Shown: positions 1 to 54,404 of the stretch, in pieces
Layout of the letters: every line of letters begins with the position of its first letter
Position numbering within the stretch: the first letter of the stretch is position 1
Assembly (NCBI GenBank): GCA_026075535.2
Contig: AP026545.1
Coordinates: 1,984,001 to 2,048,000 of the forward strand
Length of the DNA stretch: 64,000 nucleotides
Reading direction: 5' to 3'
DNA from: Tricholoma matsutake
Taxonomy: Eukaryota > Basidiomycota > Agaricomycetes > Agaricales > Tricholomataceae
Translations under genes and position numbers: made by a program
The notes under the pieces: model-generated
What the model was told of the DNA's origin: nothing
What the model saw: only the letters and a program-made list of their open reading frames with translations
The model's database searches: none

Positions 1-3000
1 GAATTCGCAAAAAGTGGCAGATTTGAACTACACCCCCTGGAAAGGACAATCAGGGTCAAGAACATAGATGGAACCCCAAACAAGAAAGGGGAGATCTCCC
101 ACTACACCAAAGGATTCTTAATGATCAACGGAAGATCGTTCCTGACAACCTTCCTCATTGCAGGATTAGGGAAAGAATCAGTTATCCTGGGTCTGCCATG
201 GCTCAGAAGAATCAACCCAGTGATCGACTGGAGAATTGGAACCTTTCAATTCCAAATGACCAACCGTACCCACCCAGAATTCTCATTTGGGAAAGGGAAA
301 ACCCTCATCGGAAGGGTGCGAATGGAGAAATCCGATGACAAACCTCTGGCTTGGCGCCAGAGAACAGTCAAAGAAGAAGGGAAGCCCTTCAAAGAAATGA
401 CAAGAGAGGAGAAATGGGCATGGGCACAAAAGATGGTCGCCCAAGCAAAAGAAAAGATGGGCATCAAGACAGAGGTGAAAGAAGAAGAGCGACTTATGTG
501 GCGCTGCATAGCCACTAAAGAACTAGAAAAGCTTGCCCTCAAAAAGAAATGGAGGAACGAGGAACGGCTAACAAAATGCCAGAAAATTGCAGATAAAGCA
601 AGGCAGATGGGAGAAGCCCTTCGGACTAAGCTGGGAAAGAACACAGTACCCACCAAAATAAGAAAGGCAACCATTGAAGAAGTAGAAGATGAAGAGATTG
701 TGGTCATGACTCTTCAAGATGCAGAGCCCATTGGGCCACAAGATGAAGAAGACACTGGGAAGGAAAACCCAGCACAGGCAAACCACGAACAGGCAATGGA
801 ACAGGCAACGGAACAACTGAAAGAGACACCCGAACTAAAGATTGAAGACGACGAGCTACTAGTTGCCTACATCTGAGGAGAACCCGTCATTGGAATATTC
901 AAACCAGCTAAGACACCGCTGACAGAGGAATATGACGAGCCAAGATACGGATATTCTCGGACGACAAAGACAATCTCTCGGATCGTAAAGGCAAAAGGAT
1001 CACCGCGATATGCTTACGGACAAAATATCTGGATCAGGGCAAAAACATCGGTCTCACAACACCTGACACACAAGAAGGAAGGAGACGCTGAACAGAAGAC
1101 CCTCGACGAGCTACTCCCTGAACAGTACAGGGAGTACCGACAGATATTCGAAAAGGAAGCATCGGAGAGATTCCCAGAATCAAGACCCTGGGATCATGCG
1201 ATTGAACTGAAAACAGACTTTATGGCAAAGGATTGCAGGGTTTACCCATTGTCACTGGCAGAACAAAAGAAACTCAACAAGTTTCTTGATGAAAGCCTGC
1301 AGAAAGGATACATCTGACCATCAAAATCACCCATGGCATCGCCATTCTTCTTCATTGCAAAGAAGGACTCGGATGCGCTACGACCCTGCCAGGATTACAG
1401 GTACTTGAATAATGGAACAATCAAGAACACCTACCTGCTGCCGCTGGTAGGAGACCTGTTGGACAAACTGAGAGGGGTGAAATGGTTTATGAAATTGGAC
1501 ATCCGATGGGGATATCCCAATGTCAGAATCAAGGACGGAGATCAATGGAAAGCAGCCTTCAAGACAAACAGGGGGCTGTTTGAGCCAACGGTGATGTTCT
1601 TCGGATTATGCAACTCACCGGCAACCTTCCAGGCAATGATGAATGAGATATTCCACAACATGATCGGAGAAGGATGGCTCGTGATTTACATGGACGACAT
1701 CCTGATATTCTCCAAGGATCAGAACGAACACCAGGAAAGGACAAAGAGAGTACTGCAAAGGCTGGCAGAGAATAACCTATACCTGAAACCAGAGAAATGC
1801 AAGTTTGACATCCACAAAGTGGAATTCTTGGGTCTGATCATCCGACCCAACGAAATTGCCATGGACGACATGAAACTGGCAGGTATACAGGATTGGCCTA
1901 CCCCAACTAACGTGAAGGCAGTCAGATCCTTCCTAGGGTTTGGGAATTTCTACAGGAAATTCATCGGACATTTCGCAGAGACAAGCAGACCACTTAATGA
2001 ACTAACAAAGAAAAACAAGACGTTTGACTGGACAACCGAATGCGAAAAAGCCTTTCAGATGCTGAAAAGGAAATTTGCAGAAGCACCAGTACTGCTGATG
2101 CCAGATCCAACAAGACCATTCACAATTGAATCAGATGCCTCGAAACATGCAACAGGAGGAGTGCTGAGACAAAGAGACACGAATGGAGATTGGCACCCAT
2201 GTGGATATATATTGCATGCACTGACACCAACGGAACGAAACTACGAAATCTATGACAGGGAACTACTCGCGGTAGTACGATCGCTAGAAACCTGGAGGCA
2301 CTACCTGATGGGTTCAGATCACCTGGTAGTAATTCTCTCGGATCACAAGAACCTGACATATTTCCGAACGGCACAGAAACTAAACAGGAGACAGGCAAGA
2401 TGGAGCTTATTCTTGTCAGAATTTGAATTACAGCTTGTTCATGTGCCCGGATCTCAAATGGTGCAAAGTGATGCTTTATCACGAAGGGCCAACCACGTAC
2501 CGGAAGAAGACAACAACAATGAAGATATCACAATGTTACCAGAGGGTATTCGTGAAATTCATTGACACTGAACTCCATGACCTCCTTGCAGGGAGCATCA
2601 TGAAAGATGACCTGGTGAAGAGCGCAATTGAGGCGCTAAAGACCAAAGGAACACTGCTGATAAAGTTGGCGTTAGAAGACTGGAAGATCGAGGATGGCCT
2701 CCTATTCTTCCGAAATCGATGCTACGTCCCTGACAATGGGGACATATGAAAGAAGCTGGTACAGAAATACCATGAAGGGGTAACCAGCGGACACCCAGGA
2801 CAATGGCAGACAACCGAAATGGTTAGAAGGGACTACTGGTGGCCAGGAATGATGACGTACATCAAGAACTACATCGCCGGATGCGCTACATGCCAGCAGA
2901 TGAAAGTCAACACCCACCCGATGACACCACCCCTACAACCAATCAAATCCAAAGCGACAAGGCCATTTGCAATGGTGACGACCGATTTCATAACTGACCT

Positions 3001-4010
3001 ACCGGAGTCCAACGGTTATGATGCGCTCATGGTCGTGGTAGACCATGGGCTTACGAAGGGGGTAATTTTCATCCCTTGCAAGAAAACAATCGATGCACTG
3101 GGAGCAGCGACCCTCTATCTGGATTACATCTACAAATGGTTCGGCCTTCCAGACAAGATAATATCGGACAGGGACCCCAGATTCACCTCGCAGCTATTCC
3201 AAGAATTAGGAAGATTGCTTGGAATCAAGCTGGCAATGAGTACGGCATACCACCCCCAGACCGACAGAGAAACAGAACAGGTGAATCAGGAAGTAGAAGT
3301 CTACCTGCGGATCTTCTGCTCGAACAACCAAGAGAAATGGAAGCACTTCCTTCAACAGCAGAGTTCACGCACAACCAAAGGACGCACTCCACCCAGAAAA
3401 GCTCCCCGTTCTACCTGATGATGGGCTATGAACCAAAGGTGATCCCACTCCCATACCTGAAAACAAACATACCGGCTATAGAGAAATGAATAGTCGTGTT
3501 GCAACAAGCCTGAGATGAAGCAAAGGCAACTCACGAGTTGGCCAGACAGCTGATGGCAGAAAGAACTACACGGCACTTCACACCATCCAAAGAAGGAGAC
3601 AGGGTGTGGCTAGAAGCAAAGAACCTCAAAACGACGCATGCAACAAAGAAACTCGCACCCAAAAGAGAAGGACCATTCTCCATCGAGAAGGTTCTAAGCC
3701 CCCTCTCCTACTGACTGAAGCTACCAAACCAATGGAAAATACACCTGGTATTCCATGCGGCACTCCTCACCCCATATAAAGAAACCGAGACGCATGGTCC
3801 AAACTTCCCAGAACCTCCGCCGGACCTAATAGAAGGTGAATCGGAGTATGAAGTGGAAGCGATCATCGGACATAAAAAGAAAGGAAGGACCATGCACTTC
3901 TTAGTGAAGTGGGTTGGATACCTGACCTTGGAGAACTCCTGGGAGCCCGAGGGAAACCTGAAACACGCCAAGAAAATCCTTGGAGCATATAAACAGCAAC
4001 AACAGCTGTA
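1..4010 (+). pseudogene. Ty3/gypsy pol polyprotein, decayed
   Basis: The frame is open from base 1, before the first ATG at 121, so the true N-terminus is off-window. The retropepsin C-terminal motif (ILGLPWLRRINP, then VIDW) lies near 185-235, followed by a lysine/glutamate-rich linker to 876. After a TGA at 874 the frame continues into reverse transcriptase; the catalytic YMDDILIFS is near 1687-1713. RNase H spans roughly 2110-2500. A 1-nt frameshift near 2545 moves the rest to another frame. The HHCC zinc domain of integrase (YHEG, GHPG, CATC) is at about 2768-2900 and the catalytic core (TTDF, SDRDPRF, AYHPQTD) at about 2975-3300. After a second frameshift near 3350 come the C-terminal integrase region and a chromodomain (LVKWVGY, NSWEP) at 3840-4008. 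All internal stops are TGA at positions where the family has arginine. Confidence 0.92.
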
Positions 4011-32179: not shown

Positions 32180-33262
32180 TCCAGCGATGCTGATCACTGC
32201 CGCCATAGATTTCGTATCCTTCTCATTGGCAAGGTCAGTTCGAGTTAGTTCATCTTACATGGATCACACTGAGGATTCTGATTGATACAGTCGGGCGTAG
32301 GCAAGTCATCCCTCATCAATCATATATTCAGTGTAGAATATGATGTAGGATCCTTCCTTTGTCAACTTTACAAAATTAAATATTCATGTCACAGACCGTT
32401 TCACATCGAGAGCATGGAATCTGTGACATCAGCAAGGAAATCATGTCGCCTCAAAATCCGTGTTTTGTCGTCCATGACTCCCAAGGGTTCGAGCCAGGAG
32501 TGGTCGACAATTTGAATTTAGTGAAAACATTTCCTCAACAGCGCGACAATGGCGAGCTGAACGATCAAGTTCACGCCATCTGGCAAGTTTCTTCTTCTGT
32601 GGCTATGGGTTTTGTTGAGTTCTATTCCAGGCTCTGTATCCAAGTTCCATTTGCCGGAGGACGCGTATTCGAGAGAAAGGTGATGAAGAGCTCCTGAAGC
32701 TTGGCCTCAAAAGTGAGTTTTCATGTCATCCATCCTTTTAGGAAATTATTATAACTACTGGATAGCACCAATTGTCGTTGTTTTCACCCAATTTGATCAA
32801 CTTCTTGTTAGGAAAGAGGTGATGAAGGAACAAATTGGAAGAGGAGCGTAGAGCACTTCAAGTCCTTCAACGAGCGAACGATACCTTCCAAAGCTCCTGT
32901 ATTGATCAGCTGGACAAATTAGGACGCAATCTACCCTATGAGAAAGTGTCTGGTCTGGTACTATTTCCTTGTCTACGTATACTTCCACTGATGCTGTAGT
33001 TATCAGTTGAGCCTGACCATAGAGAAACCCTTTTGAAGTTAGTCGATATCACTCAAGAACTTGTCAGCCGGCACGTGGAAGGAGACGTCTGGATAATCTC
33101 TGCAATGGCGCAGCAAGCAAGCGCTCAAGCAAAAGTCAATTCCTCTATAGAGTCCGTTTGTATTTGTTCTCCCTTTCAGTCCGTTTTCTAACATTTCCAA
33201 ATGGCAGAGTTGGCATGAAAAGCAAGTTCAGCACTACGATTTGGAGGAGTCATTTAACTCTC
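32180..33262 (+). pseudogene. G-domain GTPase, disrupted by two frameshifts
   Basis: Spliced segments read as a mushroom-type G-domain protein. The P-loop LLIGKSGVGKSSL is split by an intron at about 32,235-32,291, followed by the switch region (SHREHGICDISKEI) and the DSQGFEPG motif. HAIW is joined by a GC-AG intron (32,584 region, donor GCAAGT) to LCIQVPFAGGRVFE. VVVFTQFDQL (G4-like TQFD) and SAMAQQASAQAKV follow. Frameshifts occur near 32,676 (between VFE and GDEEL) and near 32,835 (before LEEERRALQVLQ). The first exon is not identified. It neighbours the related intact GTPase gene at 34,817, suggesting a local duplication. Confidence 0.75.
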
Positions 33263-34816: not shown

Positions 34817-37800
34817 ATGAAATTTAAGAGACTATTGGCACGGCTCTTTCGCGGTCGTCGGATGAAGAGACAAGTAACACATTATCTCCTCATTGCAACT
34901 TGAACTGCGAGTGACCGGCACTGCTGTAACACAGGTAACGGCGCTCCCTCCAGAAGTAGAACCCAATCCAGAGGTAGAAGAGCCTGATGCAGAGGTAGAA
35001 GAGCCCGATACAGAGGTAGAAGAGCCCGATACAGAGGTAGAAGAGCCTGATACAGAGGTAGAAGAGCCCGATACAGAGGTCGCATGCAGCACTGATCCAC
35101 ATGCTATGATTATACACTCATCATCCGTTTGCAGATGAACAGAGCTATCGAAATACGCAGCCAATGTCGCCATTTTCGCATTCTTGTAATCGGACGAGCA
35201 AATGCTGGGAAGACTACACTATTGAAGAAAGTCTGCGAGTCCACAGATGATCCAAGGATTTATGGTGCCAATGGGAAAGAGGTTGGTCTTATATATTAAT
35301 ACATAGTGGTCAAATCTTACTGTTTGAGTTACTATTCTGTAGATTGACACATCGGTTGTGGCACCCTCTGAGCAGGTATGTCCTTCATTCACCCTTTCAA
35401 GCTTCAGGATAAAATACTGCTCTAGCGTGGGCTTCATGATATTGAGAACCAATTGGTGTTTGCAAGCAACCCACAGTTTGTCTTTCATGATTCCATGGGA
35501 TTTGAAGCAGGTGGTACTGGAGAACTAGAAGCTGTCAAAGCCTTCATTGCTAGCCGAGCAAAAGCAACCCATATGTCAAGGCAGCTACATGCAATTTGGT
35601 GCATTTTATGTTGAATTTATTACTACTAATAGTTCAAACTAATGTTTTTGGTTGTTGAAACCAGGTATTGTCTTCCTACTGACACCAACAGACCACTTTT
35701 AGCAGCTGACCACATTTTCTTTGAAGAATGTGGTACTGGAAAAGGTCAGGCAAATTATTTGCTGATAGGGCTCATTTCTTTAATGGAACCATATTTCTAA
35801 GTCCCAGTTATTGCTATTTTCACCAAGTTTGATGCTCTCATTACCACTGCATTTGGGGAACTTCGGAAACAGGGTCACACATGGGCAGATGCAAAGGACA
35901 ATGCTTCAGTTCTTGCAGAGCATAAATTGAAGGAGGATTATATTGATCAACTTCATAAATCCAAGTACAAACCCAAGAAGCATGTTTGGCTGAAAGGTAC
36001 CTTAAATATATTTGAATTTAAAATGTGGCTTCTAATATATTTTCTTACATATAGACATGCAGCAGGATGCAACAACCTGCCTGGAATTGATTGAAGAGAC
36101 AGCACAGGCTATTGACAATAATGCTCTCAAGCTGCTGTTTGTATCAGTCCAACAAAGCAACATTGATCTTTGCATTAGGGCTGCCATAGAAGAGTATTAT
36201 TTATGTGGTCTTTTTGTTTAGCAAAATCTCACCTTATCATAGATCTATTGGTAAACATCACATCAGCCTTCCAAAATGTTGGGAGCTTATCTAAGACTGT
36301 TGTTTACAGGCAATTTCCGAATAGAGTTGAATGATGAAACTCTTGAGAAACTGGTCAGGAGGACAGCTGCATGGTTTCCACATGTGTGGGTGAGTTCTCA
36401 AGTTGATATAGGTTTCCTTGGTATTAACTGACATAATCCATAGTTACATGTAAGCAGACTATGTCTTTGTTTTGATTATATAGTTGCTCTAACAAGTTAT
36501 CTGGGGAAATTTCTTAGGATGTAGGTACCCAACTATGATACATAATAGGTAAATGTGGCTAATATGCTCTATCCAAGACCTACCAGTGGGTGAGGATTAC
36601 ATTACAATAATAAAAACCTTACTCAATAGTGGTTAATGTTGATATTGAACCAAAACAGAATGTATGTGTTAAATATTCTTATTCTTAAAAGTGTACTTAC
36701 ATACAGCATAGGATGTAAGTTATATATCTAAATAGATATTGTGACTACTACTTATTACTATGTTATAATTGCATATCCATTTCTCAGGTGAGTACTGATT
36801 TTTGAATAACTGGTAACAGATGCTGAGTATGGACTGCAACTTCTACAGGATGTAAGTGGCTGTTTATTGATCAAATCTGTTTGCTCAGCACTGACTGCAA
36901 CTTCTACAGTTTGTAAGTGGTTGTTTATTGATCAAATCTGTTTGCTCAGCACTGACTGCCACTTCTACAGGAAGTAAGTGGCTGTTTATTGATCAAATCT
37001 GTTTGCTCAGCACTGACTGCCACTTCTACAGGAAGTAAGTGGCTGATTATTGATCAAATCTGTTTGCTCAGCACTGACTGCAACTTCTACAGGGAGTAAG
37101 TGGCTGTTTATTGATCAAATCTGTTTGCTCAGCACTGACTGCAACTTCTACAGTTTGTAAGTGGCTGTTTATTGATCAAATCTGTTTGCTCAGCACTGAG
37201 TGCAACTTCTACAGCGGGTAAGTGGCTGTTTATTGATCAAATCTGTTTGCTCAGCACTGACTGCAACTTCTACAGGAAGTAAGTGGCTGTTTATTGATCA
37301 AATCTGTTGGCTCAGCACTGACTGCAACTTCTACAGTATGTAAGTGGCTGTTTATTGATCAAATCTGTTTGCTCAGCACTGACTGCAACTTCTACAGTAT
37401 GTAAGTGGCTGTTTATTGATCAAATCTGTTTGCTCAGCACTGACTGCAACTTCTACAGTTTGTAAGTGGTTGTTTATTGATCAAATCTGTTTGCTCAGCA
37501 CTGACTGCCACTTCTACAGGAAGTAAGTGGCTGATTATTGATCAAATCTGTTTGCTCAGCACTGACTGCAACTTCTACAGGAAGTAAGTGGCTGTTTATT
37601 GATCAAATCTGTTTGCTCAGCACTGACTGCAACTTCTACAGTATGTAAGTGGCTGTTTATTGATCAAATCTGTTTGCTCAGCACTGACTGCCACTTCTAC
37701 AGTATGTAAGTGGCTGTTTATTGATCAAATCTGTTTGCTCAGCACTGACTGCCACTTCTACAGGAAGTAAGTGGCTGATTATTGATCAAATCTGTTGGCT

Positions 37801-38843
37801 CAGCACTGACTGCAACTTCTACAGGGAGTAAGCGGCTGTTTATTGATCAAATCTGTTTGCTCAGCACTGACTGCAACTTCTACAGTATGTAAGTGGCTGT
37901 TTATTGATCAAATCTGTTTGCTCAGCACTGACTGCCACTTCTACAGAAAGTAAGTGGCTGTTTATTGATCAAATCTGTTGGCTCAGCACTGACTGCAACT
38001 TCTACAGTTTGTAAGTGGTTGTTTATTGATCAAATCTGTTTGCTCAGCACTGACTGCAACTTCTACAGTTGGTAAGTGGCTGTTTATTGATCAAATCTGT
38101 TTGCTCAGCACTGACTGCAACTTCTACAGTTGGTAAGTGGCTGTTTATTAATCAAATCTGTTTGCTCAGCACTGACTGCCACTTCTACAGGGAGTAAGTA
38201 GCTGTTTATTGATCAAATCTGTTTGCTCATCACTGACTGCAACTTCTACAGAGAGTAAGTGGCTTTTTATCAATCCAATCTATTTACTGTGCACTGACTG
38301 CCACTTCTACAGTTTGTAAGTAGCCATCTATCTCATTAAATTATTATCACTTGATACTGTGCTATAATCAGGATGTCAATATCTCTGCTTTCACCAAAGC
38401 ACTTCAACCACTTTTACATCAGGTTTGTCATACAAATACATGTTGCCTTCACTGCTGTCTTTTTATTGCACATGATGCCTAGGCCAATTCATTGCTACCT
38501 GATTTTCAGGTGTTCTTTATGGGTGTAGGTATGTTTTTTTCAGTTATACATTTGTTTCAGGTCCTTTATTCTTTATCTAGTTATCCTCTTATGTATCAAG
38601 CATACAGTGTCATTGGCAGAAGATGCCACTGTATCACTTGATAGAAGCTTTCCTGTTGCCATCCAGCATTATCAAGAACAGGGAATTTTCAACAAGGTGT
38701 TGGAATTTTTCAAGGACAACTCAGGTCTATCTGAAAACAAAGATAAATATAATCAGTTGTGGGCACTGATCCAGGATAATTGCTGTATGTGTTTTATTAT
38801 TCTTCAGCATGCCCATCCAAAGGTTTTTTCCCTTGTGCTGTAG
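34817..38843 (+). CDS. G-domain GTPase with a tandem mini-intron / microexon array
   Basis: Exons: 34817-34873, 34935-35078, 35135-35281, 35343-35375, 35426-35598, 35665-35744, 35802-35996, 36055-36207, 36310-36389, then the intron array, then 38372-38422, 38483-38528, 38608-38843. All junctions are in phase; without microexons this gives 464 residues, and each microexon adds one. The N-terminus holds EVEEPDT repeats. The P-loop is GRANAGKTT (G1), with DSMGFE (G3), TKFD (G4-like) and a helical C-terminal half, as in mushroom G-domain proteins; the substrate is GTP and the cellular role is unknown. The FPHVW exon ends at 36389 and the DVNISAFTKAL exon starts at 38372, both phase 0. Met at 35135 is an alternative start. 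Everything outside the array is open, so the gene looks functional. Confidence 0.85.
34960..35078 (+). repeat. 21-bp coding tandem repeat (EVEEPDT)
   Basis: About five units of GAGGTAGAAGAGCCYGATRC A encode a strongly acidic heptad, EVEEPDT/A, ahead of the GTPase domain. Units differ by one or two transitions. The number of units probably varies between strains. Confidence 0.8.
36390..36848 (+). other. Irregular leader of the microexon array
   Basis: After the FPHVW exon, candidate introns are 36390-36443, 36450-36517, 36521-36658, 36662-36711 and 36715-36848. They leave possible small exons TTACAT (36444-36449), GAT (36518-36520), AAT (36659-36661) and GAT (36712-36714), all multiples of three. 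At 36787/36788 an acceptor CTCAG abuts a donor GTGAGT with no exon between, a recursive-splice-site arrangement. These units are diverged from the regular array and may be older. Splicing is inferred from motifs only. Confidence 0.45.
36849..38315 (+). repeat. Tandem array of 58-nt introns separated by 3-nt microexons (25 microexons, 24 introns)
   Basis: The period is exactly 61 bp with no indel over 24 units. Each unit has a variable triplet, donor GTAAGT (GTAAGC once), branch site CTGAC about 16 nt from the end, and acceptor CTACAG. First bases and triplets: 36849 GAT, 36910 TTT, 36971 GAA, 37032 GAA, 37093 GGA, 37154 TTT, 37215 CGG, 37276 GAA, 37337 TAT, 37398 TAT, 37459 TTT, 37520 GAA, 37581 GAA; 37642 TAT, 37703 TAT, 37764 GAA, 37825 GGA, 37886 TAT, 37947 AAA, 38008 TTT, 38069 TTG, 38130 TTG, 38191 GGA, 38252 AGA, 38313 TTT. 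A last 56-nt intron (38316-38371) leads to the next exon. The alternative reading is one 1,982-nt intron made of a minisatellite. Confidence 0.9.
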
Positions 38844-52300: not shown

Positions 52301-54404
52301 GGGACAGATCATCAGTGCTACCCCCGTTTCTATGCTCATCCAACTCCTAACGACCATGGGGGAGAGTCTTCGGCTCTGGATCACTGACGTCGATCAGGTG
52401 ATGCTCGAGTCTGAATTTAACACCGTTGTACGATTTCACGTTTTTGTGCTCTATGTCTGACTAATCTGCTCTTCCTGCATAGGTGAACGAGGTATATTGT
52501 CGTGCACTCGTTTCTCTGAGCCGTTTGGAGCCTTCTCTAGAACGGTTGATCGCTGTCTCTCCTTTCCTTGCGACTGCTTTCGTTCGCGTACCCCATCCCG
52601 CTAGCGGGCCAATGGCCTTTGAAAGTTTCTGGCGAGGAACGTATCACGGTCTTCCACAATATAGGCCGTTCTACCCGGACTGCCTCAACGCATGCCTGAT
52701 GGGCTTCGCTGATGTCTGTGGGGGTAGCCTAGGCGAAGGTTTATCAATGGGCACCGAAACTCAGATCACTGTACGTCCCTACAAATGTTATGATCTCCCT
52801 TAATTAATTAGTTTTCAGCAATTGTCGACTGTGCCTGATTCGCAGCTAGCTTATTGTGAAGTGGGCGAAACTCAAGGATTCGAGACGCGAATATCGCAAA
52901 ATCAAAACCCTCTCCGAGATACGTCGACGGCCTGCGATCTGACGCTACCTGCACCAGGCTCACTCGATTTTTTACCCGACTCGAAAGGGCGAGTACAACA
53001 CCATCACGGCCCCATGGCAGCCCTACGGCAACTAAACGACTACGATAGCCAGAATGACTACGACAGTTGGCAGGATGAAACACTCTCGGGCAAACACTCC
53101 GCCCCTCAAGATGATCTAACTCCACATCGTTATCCCCGCTTGTCGACATCGCCATCCCCCAAGATTTGGAGGCGAGAACACAGGACCTCTTCTAGTAGGA
53201 GATTATTATCGCCGCTACGCATCAATTTGCGGGACCAGCCCACTTCGTCACAGGCTCCTGAACGCAAACGACCATTTGAATCGAGCGAAGGTGCGTTTTT
53301 GGCGTGCCTCGCTCGCGGGATACTTGACTGAGCAATGAGCAGATGGCCCGTCCGTGAAACGACGAAAGACCGATACTGAGATCTACCTCAAGCGCCCCTT
53401 CGTACGAAACATTCAAAAGCCACAATCTCAGGATGGTTTGGAGCCATGTCTGATCAGTCTCGAACCGATGTCATCTTCTCCCATGGAGAACGAGACACGA
53501 GACCTTGCATCCCGGGGAGTGGTTTTATATCGGGACGAACGACCATCTTCGCCGTATTTTCCTACAGAAGACCCTCCAAGTACACCTGCACCAAGGAACA
53601 GTTGTGGTTTGGATAAACTAAATACCACGCCCCCGTCGCCCTCCTCTGAAGACTACAACAGTTGGGAGGCGGGCGTGTCAGTTGAGGAAATGCAAAAATT
53701 ACGGCGTGAATTTGTTGGTGGTAAGTCGTGAACACGCACATATTCTTATGCTTTCCAACCACATTCCTGCTAATAGATCTGGAGGCCCTCAAGATAGAAT
53801 CGGACGATAGGTCTGAACGAGATGAAGATCCCGAGTCCGACGAAGGTACGTGGATTTCATTATTTATGGCGTTCAAACCTCTTGACTGGTTCTCTGTTCT
53901 CTGGCAGCTGTCCATGATACAACTCTCCTCAGTCCTTTCCTTAGGCCGACTACCAGCGAAAGACAAACTACCAGCCAAAGACAAACTACCAGCCAAAGAC
54001 AAACTACCAGCCAAAGACAAACTACCAGCCAAAGACAAACTACCAGCCAAAGACAAACTACCAGCCAAAGACAAACTACCAGCCAAAGACAAACTACCAG
54101 CCAAAGACAAACTACCAGCCAAAGACAAACTACCAGCCAAAGACAAACTACCAGCCAAAGACAAACCCGATCTCAAACCGCACCAGATGCCATTCCCCTT
54201 CGCCCTCATCTGTCGCCTCCTCTACGAAGACATCAGACCACTGGTACGTCGACGCGCATGGAAGCCCTCCAGCGCGCGTACACTGCCGTCATGAACGACG
54301 AATCCCAAGTGCCGGTGGAAGATTTGGTTCAAGCGACTGCACTGGTAAACAGGATTGGGACGAAGCTTGATGAACAGATGAAGAAAAGACTCAAGGCTTC
54401 GTAA
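49360..54404 (+). CDS. RIF1: Rap1-interacting factor 1 (RIF1) homologue
   Basis: Eleven exons join in frame: 49360-49972, 50027-50250, 50308-51336, 51389-51882, 51936-52076, 52133-52427, 52483-52770, 52819-53290, 53343-53720, 53777-53845, 53908-54404, giving 1,499 residues. The N-terminal two-thirds is a helical-repeat region matching Rif1_N; the most typical stretch is LLEILPSVLENLTSRFVECR with QAAHALGGFVLAKL (about 50,360-50,470). The C-terminal third is disordered, with a basic cluster (SVKRRKT), many SQ/TQ motifs and the 12-unit repeat at 53,953-54,168. It ends with a helical MEALQRAYTAVMNDES...KLDEQMKKRL. Rif1 controls replication timing, telomere length and double-strand-break repair in the nucleus. 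No clear PP1-docking RVxF/SILK motif was found. Confidence 0.85.
53953..54168 (+). repeat. Twelve 18-bp tandem repeats encoding TSQRQT in RIF1
   Basis: The unit CCAGCCAAAGACAAACTA is repeated 12 times without indels; only the first unit (CCAGCG) and the last base pairs differ. In the RIF1 frame, set by the splice at 53,908 and the conserved C-terminus, it reads TSERQT once and TSQRQT eleven times, each giving an SQ dipeptide. Other frames are also open but are not the spliced frame. Confidence 0.85.

Follow-up and report, generated by a model that had tools for sequence, protein, structure and literature searches.

Can a fungal gene be read through a row of single codons, each of them enclosed between two apparently complete introns? 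The question is raised by a GTPase gene of the basidiomycete Tricholoma matsutake that lies within a window of 64,000 nt (assembly GCA_026075535.2, contig AP026545.1, positions 1,984,001 to 2,048,000 of the forward strand), the whole of which was analysed and whose numbering is used here unless another locus is named. On the forward strand of the window, at 36849-38315, 25 triplets alternate with 24 introns of 58 nt at a constant step of 61 bp, and as an observation this one-codon array is confirmed to be real. The reading that is favoured here, and that we regard as probable, is that the triplets are serially spliced one-codon exons, which would together encode a hypervariable linker leading from the G domain to the C-terminal helices of the protein.

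The array within the window

Tandem Repeats Finder reports a repeat at 36832-38321 with a period of 61, 24.4 copies, 93% matches and 0% indels, and a scripted search, with a check of the coordinates, recovered 25 CAG-NNN-GTAAG junctions at a regular interval of 61 bp, the first at 36849 and the last at 38313. Both results bear out the claim of the initial annotation that 24 units of exactly 61 bp follow one another. An AG acceptor abuts each triplet exactly on one side, as does a GTAAG donor on the other; in order the triplets are GAT TTT GAA GAA GGA TTT CGG GAA TAT TAT TTT GAA GAA TAT TAT GAA GGA TAT AAA TTT TTG TTG GGA AGA TTT, and their translation is DFEEGFREYYFEEYYEGYKFLLGRF. The unit had been described as GTAAGT...CTGAC...CTACAG, which is correct for the CTACAG end in all 24 introns and for the GTAAGT start and the CTGAC motif in 23 each; it had also been stated that all microexons are bounded by 58-nt introns, which holds for the 24 internal introns and not for the outermost two. 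Ahead of the first triplet the intron measures 61 nt (36788-36848), and the one after the last triplet (38316-38371, forward strand) is 56 nt long, is not an array unit, and is conserved in five of the five paralogues with a 61-bp unit.

The exon on the 5' side of the array ends with ...TTTCCACATGTGTGG at 36389 and the exon on its 3' side starts with GATGTCAATATC at 38372, both in phase 0, as had been annotated; a direct 36389-38372 junction would also preserve the frame. When chains of at least three YAG-N(k)-GTRAG junctions with a spacing of 48-95 nt were sought on both strands of the 64-kb window, with k from 0 to 12, they were found with k = 3 only and in the array only.

Array families among the GTPase paralogues

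Sixteen GTPase paralogues of this genome possess arrays, with 9 to 35 triplet units per row. The arrays fall into four families according to unit length, namely 61 bp (five genes, including the one in the window), 68 bp (three genes), 71 bp (two genes) and 76 bp (six genes). Fifteen of the 19 paralogue loci that were fetched carry an array, the window making the sixteenth, and three of the 19 (L055, L056 and L057) are without one. When spacings of 0-12 were scanned, junction chains again turned up at 3 and at no other spacing; the window has them, as have 16 of the 19 loci. The genome search for the array unit that had been proposed with the initial annotation covered, of the four units, the one of 61 bp and placed it at at least five loci, all of them GTPase paralogues; the 61-bp junction matches 115 places, and among the 100 of these that were listed, matches with no more than one mismatch contribute just two further genes, both of the 68-bp family. 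A second paralogue search with a protein of the 76-bp family yielded no locus beyond those of the first protein search.

The introns of the 61- and 68-bp families resemble one another (P = 0.001), as do those of the 68- and 71-bp families (a likeness reached in 0 of 2,000 shuffles). The likeness between 61 and 71 is not significant, and the 76-bp intron matches no other family. Because the 61/68 and 68/71 introns are distantly alike, at least three of the array families may descend from one old array.

Some loci show peculiarities of their own. In L041 the G-domain 3' exons have been partially copied in inverted orientation at 3395-3809, between the last G-domain exon and the array. L053, of the 76-bp family, has the lead ladder only (the run of predicted short introns described below), its homology ending from 4385 (reverse-complement coordinates), at the array start. 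In L055 a 167-bp tandem repeat of about 10 copies is located between G-domain exons (2365-3998, reverse-complement coordinates).

Triplets and introns compared

Across the arrays, 282 introns of 56-83 nt were recognised, and 260 of the 266 gaps between them measure 3 nt, the other six parsing as 3 nt, a variant intron and 3 nt. Not one of the 260 triplets is a stop codon against 18.4 expected from position-specific composition, and 128 of the 260 are one substitution away from a stop. The triplets differ at 0.54-0.62 per site, as compared with 0.03-0.16 for the intron interiors. The splice dinucleotides behave in the opposite manner, in that only four of their 1,040 letters were lost in 260 units, versus about 56 expected from the mean deviation of the interiors. 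For this count, units were located from the sequence of their interiors only, the scoring left out 30 partial matches, and the weighting and register calls were the author's; set aside by eye as register shifts were a variant of the 68-bp family that differs by 2 nt in length and the first introns of the window, L041, L042, L048 and L050, the last of which also has a partial duplication that was excluded. The losses counted are at L041 4072, L043 5923, L052 4296 (GC) and L052 4824, the one in L041 being the sole donor loss scored within the 61-bp family. Probabilities would overstate such contrasts because the counted units are related copies. The invariant exon length is weak as stand-alone proof, as few indels are expected within 3 nt. 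Nevertheless, the view of the initial annotation that the 25 triplets are whole in-frame one-codon exons, none of them a stop, appears well supported by the sequences of 16 paralogues in four families.

The best of the competing explanations, although an unlikely one, is that the array is a non-coding minisatellite within one long intron (36390-38371) that is either removed whole or not removed, so that the AG-NNN-GT pattern would have no role in the protein. Minisatellites are common and the direct junction keeps the frame, both of which speak for this explanation, as do the genome-wide counts of junction spacing and the substitution rates in the flanks that are given below. It is difficult to reconcile with four families that keep the 3-nt spacing and the splice sites in spite of far-diverged introns, with a position-specific constraint that preserves splice dinucleotides far better than intron interiors, and with triplets that are free of stops and yet 4- to 19-fold more different per site than those interiors. 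Two further objections to a minisatellite, the exons ahead of the array and the residues of a homologous protein, are taken up in the sections that follow.

A predicted ladder of short introns ahead of the array

The stretch from 36390 to 36848 (forward strand) had been taken as a single lead intron of 459 nt, which is probably wrong. Dynamic programming with exon length left free, in which internal exons of 0-9 nt were permitted and threes were not favoured, instead predicts a ladder of seven short introns; the coordinates were checked. The predicted introns are 36390-36443, 36450-36517, 36521-36586, 36590-36658, 36662-36706 or 36662-36711, 36715-36787 and 36788-36848. Between them, on the forward strand, would lie a 6-nt exon TTACAT (Leu-His, 36444-36449; GTACAT in L039 and TCACAT in L040), followed by 3-nt exons GAT (36518-36520), TGG (36587-36589), AAT (36659-36661) and GAT (36712-36714). 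The last of these is an exon of 8 nt (CATAGGAT) with the acceptor chosen by the program at 36706, and is 3 nt long in L039, L040 and L042; the acceptor 5 nt downstream, which is the one used in the paralogues, turns the 8-nt exon of the window into one of 3 nt. At 36787/36788 an acceptor abuts the next donor in a zero-length junction, CTCAG/GTGAGT, that is kept in L039, L040 and L042 and that resembles a re-splicing (ratchet) point.

As chosen by the program, the ladder exons of the window thus measure 6, 3, 3, 3, 8 and 0 nt, and those of L039 and L042 measure 6, 3, 3, 3, 3 and 0 nt, with introns of 50-73 nt; L048 and L050, of the 76-bp family, have ladder exons of 3, 3 and 3 nt ahead of the array. 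Single-base shuffles of the lead regions of L039 and L042 gave any ladder at all in 2 of 200 and 4 of 200 cases respectively, and in these 200 shuffles of each region no ladder with at least four internal exons, all in threes, was obtained. A lead-in that reads as an intron ladder with exons mostly in threes would not be anticipated next to a minisatellite.

If the favoured model of serial splicing is correct, the full product would carry LHDWND followed by DFEEGFREYYFEEYYEGYKFLLGRF, 31 residues in all, between FPHVW and DVNISAF. Each array intron would be removed by intron definition. Joint use of two splice sites with 3 nt between them is improbable, and since they would hardly be occupied at the same time the removal is envisaged as stepwise, every excision adding one codon to a growing exon. 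The zero-length AG/GT junction could then serve as a point of re-splicing.

Homologous proteins at the insertion site

The closest homologue, P0001, from a close relative, is 81% identical over 77% of the query and is encoded on a contig of 1302 nt that looks like cDNA, because its G-domain exons are joined; the second-best, the matsutake protein P0002, is 85% identical over 71% of the query. P0001 reads FPHSW-VQWNYSEDVA-VSSCLVIKSVCSALTATSTV, and the portion VSSCLVIKSVCSALTATSTV is close to a translated intron of the 61-bp family. Its sequence is compatible with ladder-like residues, among them the W and the N predicted at 36587-36589 and 36659-36661, followed by one retained array intron that was translated. 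When VQWNYSED was set against the predicted ladder peptides LHDWNDD and VHDWSDD, P was about 0.0006-0.0009 with random peptides as the reference. The retention of in-frame residues at the place of the supposed long intron speaks against a minisatellite that is removed whole. The homologues P0029 and P0011, from short contigs, continue with TNAEYD and ANFEYD after FPHVW, resembling NYSED of P0001, and the three may perhaps represent a conserved insert start.

Two more distant homologues have low-complexity inserts after WFPH, with bounds set by eye: 69 residues in P0069 (2583-nt contig) and 45 residues in P0116 (1727-nt contig). Among windows from 120 homologues, the P0069 insert is less complex than all 27,847 others, and the P0116 insert is less complex than all but 21 of 30,728, those 21 lying in P0069. 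Beyond the insert, the sequence of P0116 goes on into a complete C-terminal domain. Both inserts are known at the protein level, at which single-codon exons are not inferable for them. A motif like F-P-H-V-W occurs in 52 of the best 120 homologues, and 46 of the 52 end within 35 residues beyond it, as if gene models of this GTPase family fail at the array site.

P0001 also bears on a second alternative, proposed with the initial annotation and judged by us slightly less likely again than the minisatellite, whereby the exons are kept or skipped at will and each gene yields many peptides. As every array exon is a whole codon, any subset of exons would remain in frame, and P0001 lacks one ladder residue and has one intron kept. 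Still, the donors of a family hardly vary, nor do its acceptors, and they offer no evident basis for a choice among exons, the differing codon order between genes already supplies diversity, and P0001 fits inclusion together with one retained intron without showing any alternative choice.

Turnover of codons and introns

How, then, do the codons come to differ so strongly among introns that are so alike? Among pairs of units with identical downstream introns in the 16 arrays, the triplet is shared in 43 of 239, which is near the array backgrounds; in the four arrays richest in such pairs the figure is 36 of 222, versus backgrounds of 12-21%. Between the close paralogues L044 and L045 the same triplet is found in seven of eight matched units, and in ten paralogue pairs it is found in 24 of 82 matched units versus 9.3 expected. 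The 61-bp family has fixed ends, all five genes opening with the triplet GAT and closing with TTT, and codon order and number differ among close paralogues. Introns are closer within than between loci in four of five 61-bp arrays and four of six 76-bp arrays. Codons thus seem to travel with their units for a while and then to diverge or reshuffle far faster than the introns. Hypermutation of the triplet was considered and not kept, because matched units show that triplets are inherited for a time.

Selection combined with repeat turnover is kept as the preferred explanation over an intron-precise copying process. Arrays would change through unequal exchange between repeats, with the introns providing the homology, so that whole codons could be gained, lost and shuffled without a frame shift, and selection would keep the codons diverse.

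The same data bear on an explanation that we hold to be quite improbable, in which one introner-like intron was copied into successive codon boundaries and the triplets are remnants of a continuous exon. Introns homogenised without their triplets are what such an invasion would leave behind, and the low sharing of triplets beside identical introns can be counted in its favour. It would need an additional rule to yield strict 3-nt steps, the 61-bp unit, among the matches listed, has been placed in this GTPase gene family only, close paralogues differ in the order and number of codons, and the inheritance of triplets between L044 and L045 is what transmission of whole units predicts. Least probable of all is a splicing brake, in which the array slows splicing so that retained introns truncate the protein or trigger mRNA decay: P0001, and perhaps P0069, does show a retained intron directly after included residues, but incidental codons would not be expected to avoid stops and to vary far more than the introns do, P0116 passes through its insert into the C-terminal domain, and apart from a stop at the next-to-last codon in L039 and L040 the C-side exons are open in all five 61-bp paralogues.

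Points that weigh against spliced codons

A number of observations count against the interpretation of the triplets as serially spliced codons. The splicing of the array is a prediction from genomic sequence. The families are not four independent origins, the 61-, 68- and 71-bp introns being distantly related as judged by their likeness; L041 has undergone rearrangement, and in L053 the homology breaks off where the array begins. Genome-wide, YAG-N3-GTRAGT occurs 4,184 times, versus 5,022 for N2 and 5,548 for N4, so there is no excess of 3-nt spacing; as the first 100 places listed per pattern contain recurrent strings, these counts are silent on further arrays. If triplets are counted by kind, 30 distinct triplets without a stop are unremarkable (P = 0.144), and the absence of stops by triplet kind is accordingly weak as proof.

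The ladder is not clean, with an 8-nt exon chosen in the window and one of 2 nt in L040, where the acceptor is changed, and no ladder solution was obtained in L047. The ladder run covered the window, L039, L040, L042, L047, L048 and L050 and left out L041, L043-L046, L049 and L051-L054; the anchor pattern was not found in L046, L049 and L051-L054, and neither L041 nor the 68-bp family formed part of the run. As to the homologous proteins, shuffled P0001 residues match the ladder in 4% of trials, P0001 is without the first D and has extra residues, and its insert, known as protein only, could be one ordinary exon. P0001 has a retained intron, as perhaps does P0069. A homology search with the P0001 tail returned P0001 alone, and a search with the full predicted C-terminal product gave no match.

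The proportions of nonsynonymous and synonymous differences (pN and pS) add to these doubts. Among recent paralogues, with pairs that are not independent, pN/pS amounts to 0.91 for the G side and 0.80 for the C side, and for that reason neither half of the gene shows strong constraint; the value of 0.80 does not bear out a purifying selection of the C side that could serve as proof of read-through. The exon just before the array, in which pN is 0.142 and pS 0.059 (five paralogues, pairs again not independent), counts on the other side, in favour of the spliced codons. From these values the gene looks to evolve fast on both sides of the array, the C side being no more decayed than the G side.

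The gene around the array

Upstream of the G domain, at 34958-35080 (forward strand), a 21-bp repeat of about 5.9 copies was detected by the repeat finder; in translation it is open as EEPDTEV repeats and is likely part of an N-terminal exon. The copy number of this repeat ranges from about 2.5 to 5.9 across the five 61-bp paralogues (2.5-4.9 in L039, L040, L041 and L042, near the 5' ends) and represents a second repeat-length variation in these genes. The G-domain exons (MNRAIEIRSQCRHFRILVIGRANAGKTT... to ...AAWFPHVW, 35135-36389, forward strand) have short introns between them and were delimited by tblastn and with homologues, the tblastn pieces being 35135-35287, 35423-35608, 35663-35998, 36054-36203 and 36285-36392. 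On the 3' side, also on the forward strand, follow the first exon of the C-terminal part (DVNISAFTKALQPLLHQ, 38372-38422), a likely short exon (VFFMGV, 38510-38528, phase 1 end) and a C-terminal exon (VSLAEDATVSL...WALIQDN, 38608-38783) whose exact 3' end is not fixed, so that the next-to-last-codon stops of L039 and L040 concern an exon end that is itself not fixed.

P0001 has the G1 motif GRANAGKTT and the motif FTKFD, which fit the GxxxxGK[ST] and TKxD of P-loop GTPases. In Pfam it scores 20.1 bits for MMR_HSR1, just under the cut-off of 21.9, and in a scan of four homologues the best families are MMR_HSR1 or Arf; no WD family is listed in that scan, and NACHT appears only at E 0.14 in one of the four. 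In the structural model of P0116 confidence is high in the G domain and in the C-terminal helices (about 368-451) and poor at about 301-370. The insert of P0116, residues 302-346, is inside the low-confidence stretch, partly drawn as helix, and leads from the G domain to the C-terminal helices. In a fold search the closest among the matches listed are immunity-related GTPases (IRG), septins and EngB-like GTPases, none of them decisive; the likeness to IRG, which combine a G domain with a helical domain of their own, is weak.

Several array genes have beside them another GTPase gene, which is more distant and of a different type, at 32401-32589 of the window (+) and at C12:1691832 (+), C4:3296463 (-) and C4:3721510 (-), an arrangement that suggests conserved pairs. 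Elsewhere in the window, at 53949-54166, a unit of 18 bp is repeated 12 times almost perfectly (99% matches).

Comparison with known systems

Zinc-finger minisatellites of the PRDM9 type combine homogenised repeats with hypervariable contact codons, much like the arrays, but do so within a continuous exon without introns. No one-codon exon array was found in the open-access literature on introners, microexons and repeated introns, so far as the accessible portions of those articles extend, and within that limit the statement that no system of this form has been described agrees with the searches. Micro-exon genes (MEGs), introner-like elements and WD-repeat genes each fail one tested defining feature.

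The MEGs of Schistosoma appear nearest in splicing. They have rows of very short exons of 3-81 bp with introns of up to 5 kbp and encode variable proteins (PMC10526429), and share with the predicted arrangement many very short exons in multiples of three in a row as well as a variable protein. Their introns are long and their exons unequal, in contrast to the 3-nt array exons and 56-83-nt repeat introns of matsutake, and the host and the protein class are different. MEGs are further characterised by secreted products with a signal peptide and by alternative splicing of their short exons. Nearest in evolution are het-d and het-e of Podospora. In the het-d/het-e/hnwd family the WD repeats are near-identical save for a few positively selected codons, and are reshuffled within the family (PMC1805685), a combination of homogenised repeats and hypervariable codons that recalls the contrast between triplets and intron interiors. 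In Podospora it is a protein module that is repeated, and four of its codons are selected, whereas here the repeat is the intron and the coding part is one codon; WD repeats there are set against a G domain without a WD family here. NLR/WD-repeat incompatibility genes in general have NACHT or NB-ARC together with WD repeats, unlike the four GTPase homologues with their MMR_HSR1 or Arf matches.

Introner-like elements are families of near-identical spliceosomal introns that have proliferated over many gene positions (PMC4457414), as opposed to the arrays, which were found in a single gene family and whose introns follow one another in tandem with exons of 3 nt. Fungal stwintrons also form families of near-identical spliceosomal introns (PMC8469720); in a stwintron a splice signal is interrupted by another intron, while the array introns are 3 nt apart, and the 36787/36788 junction could be read as an interruption of that kind. 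Finally, Xlr2 of Trichoderma has a single fungal microexon that acts as a switch (PMC11121469), and thus a very short exon in a fungal gene, but one exon rather than an array.

Implications

A bolder version of the favoured reading can be entertained, which we consider possible though more doubtful than not. Every residue of the hypervariable peptide would be its own exon, and the introns would be the conserved, recombining scaffold by which codons are swapped as cassettes without risk to the frame. The intron copies being homogenised exactly to the splice sites and the codons being left free would imply either intron-precise copying or codon-directed diversification, and dozens of stepwise splicing events would provide a large and fast-changing repertoire of GTPase recognition. 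A recognition role for the linker is a guess from analogy with other fungal genes diversified through repeats, such as het-d and het-e.

The array site may account for where models of this GTPase family stop, and the arrays make possible a direct test of the sequential splicing of adjacent introns. If the gene is spliced as predicted, about thirty exons of 3 or 6 nt would be joined within it, which would be far beyond standard exon-recognition models and current gene annotation. Introns would then act as recombination spacers, and a segment of the protein could be changed one codon at a time.

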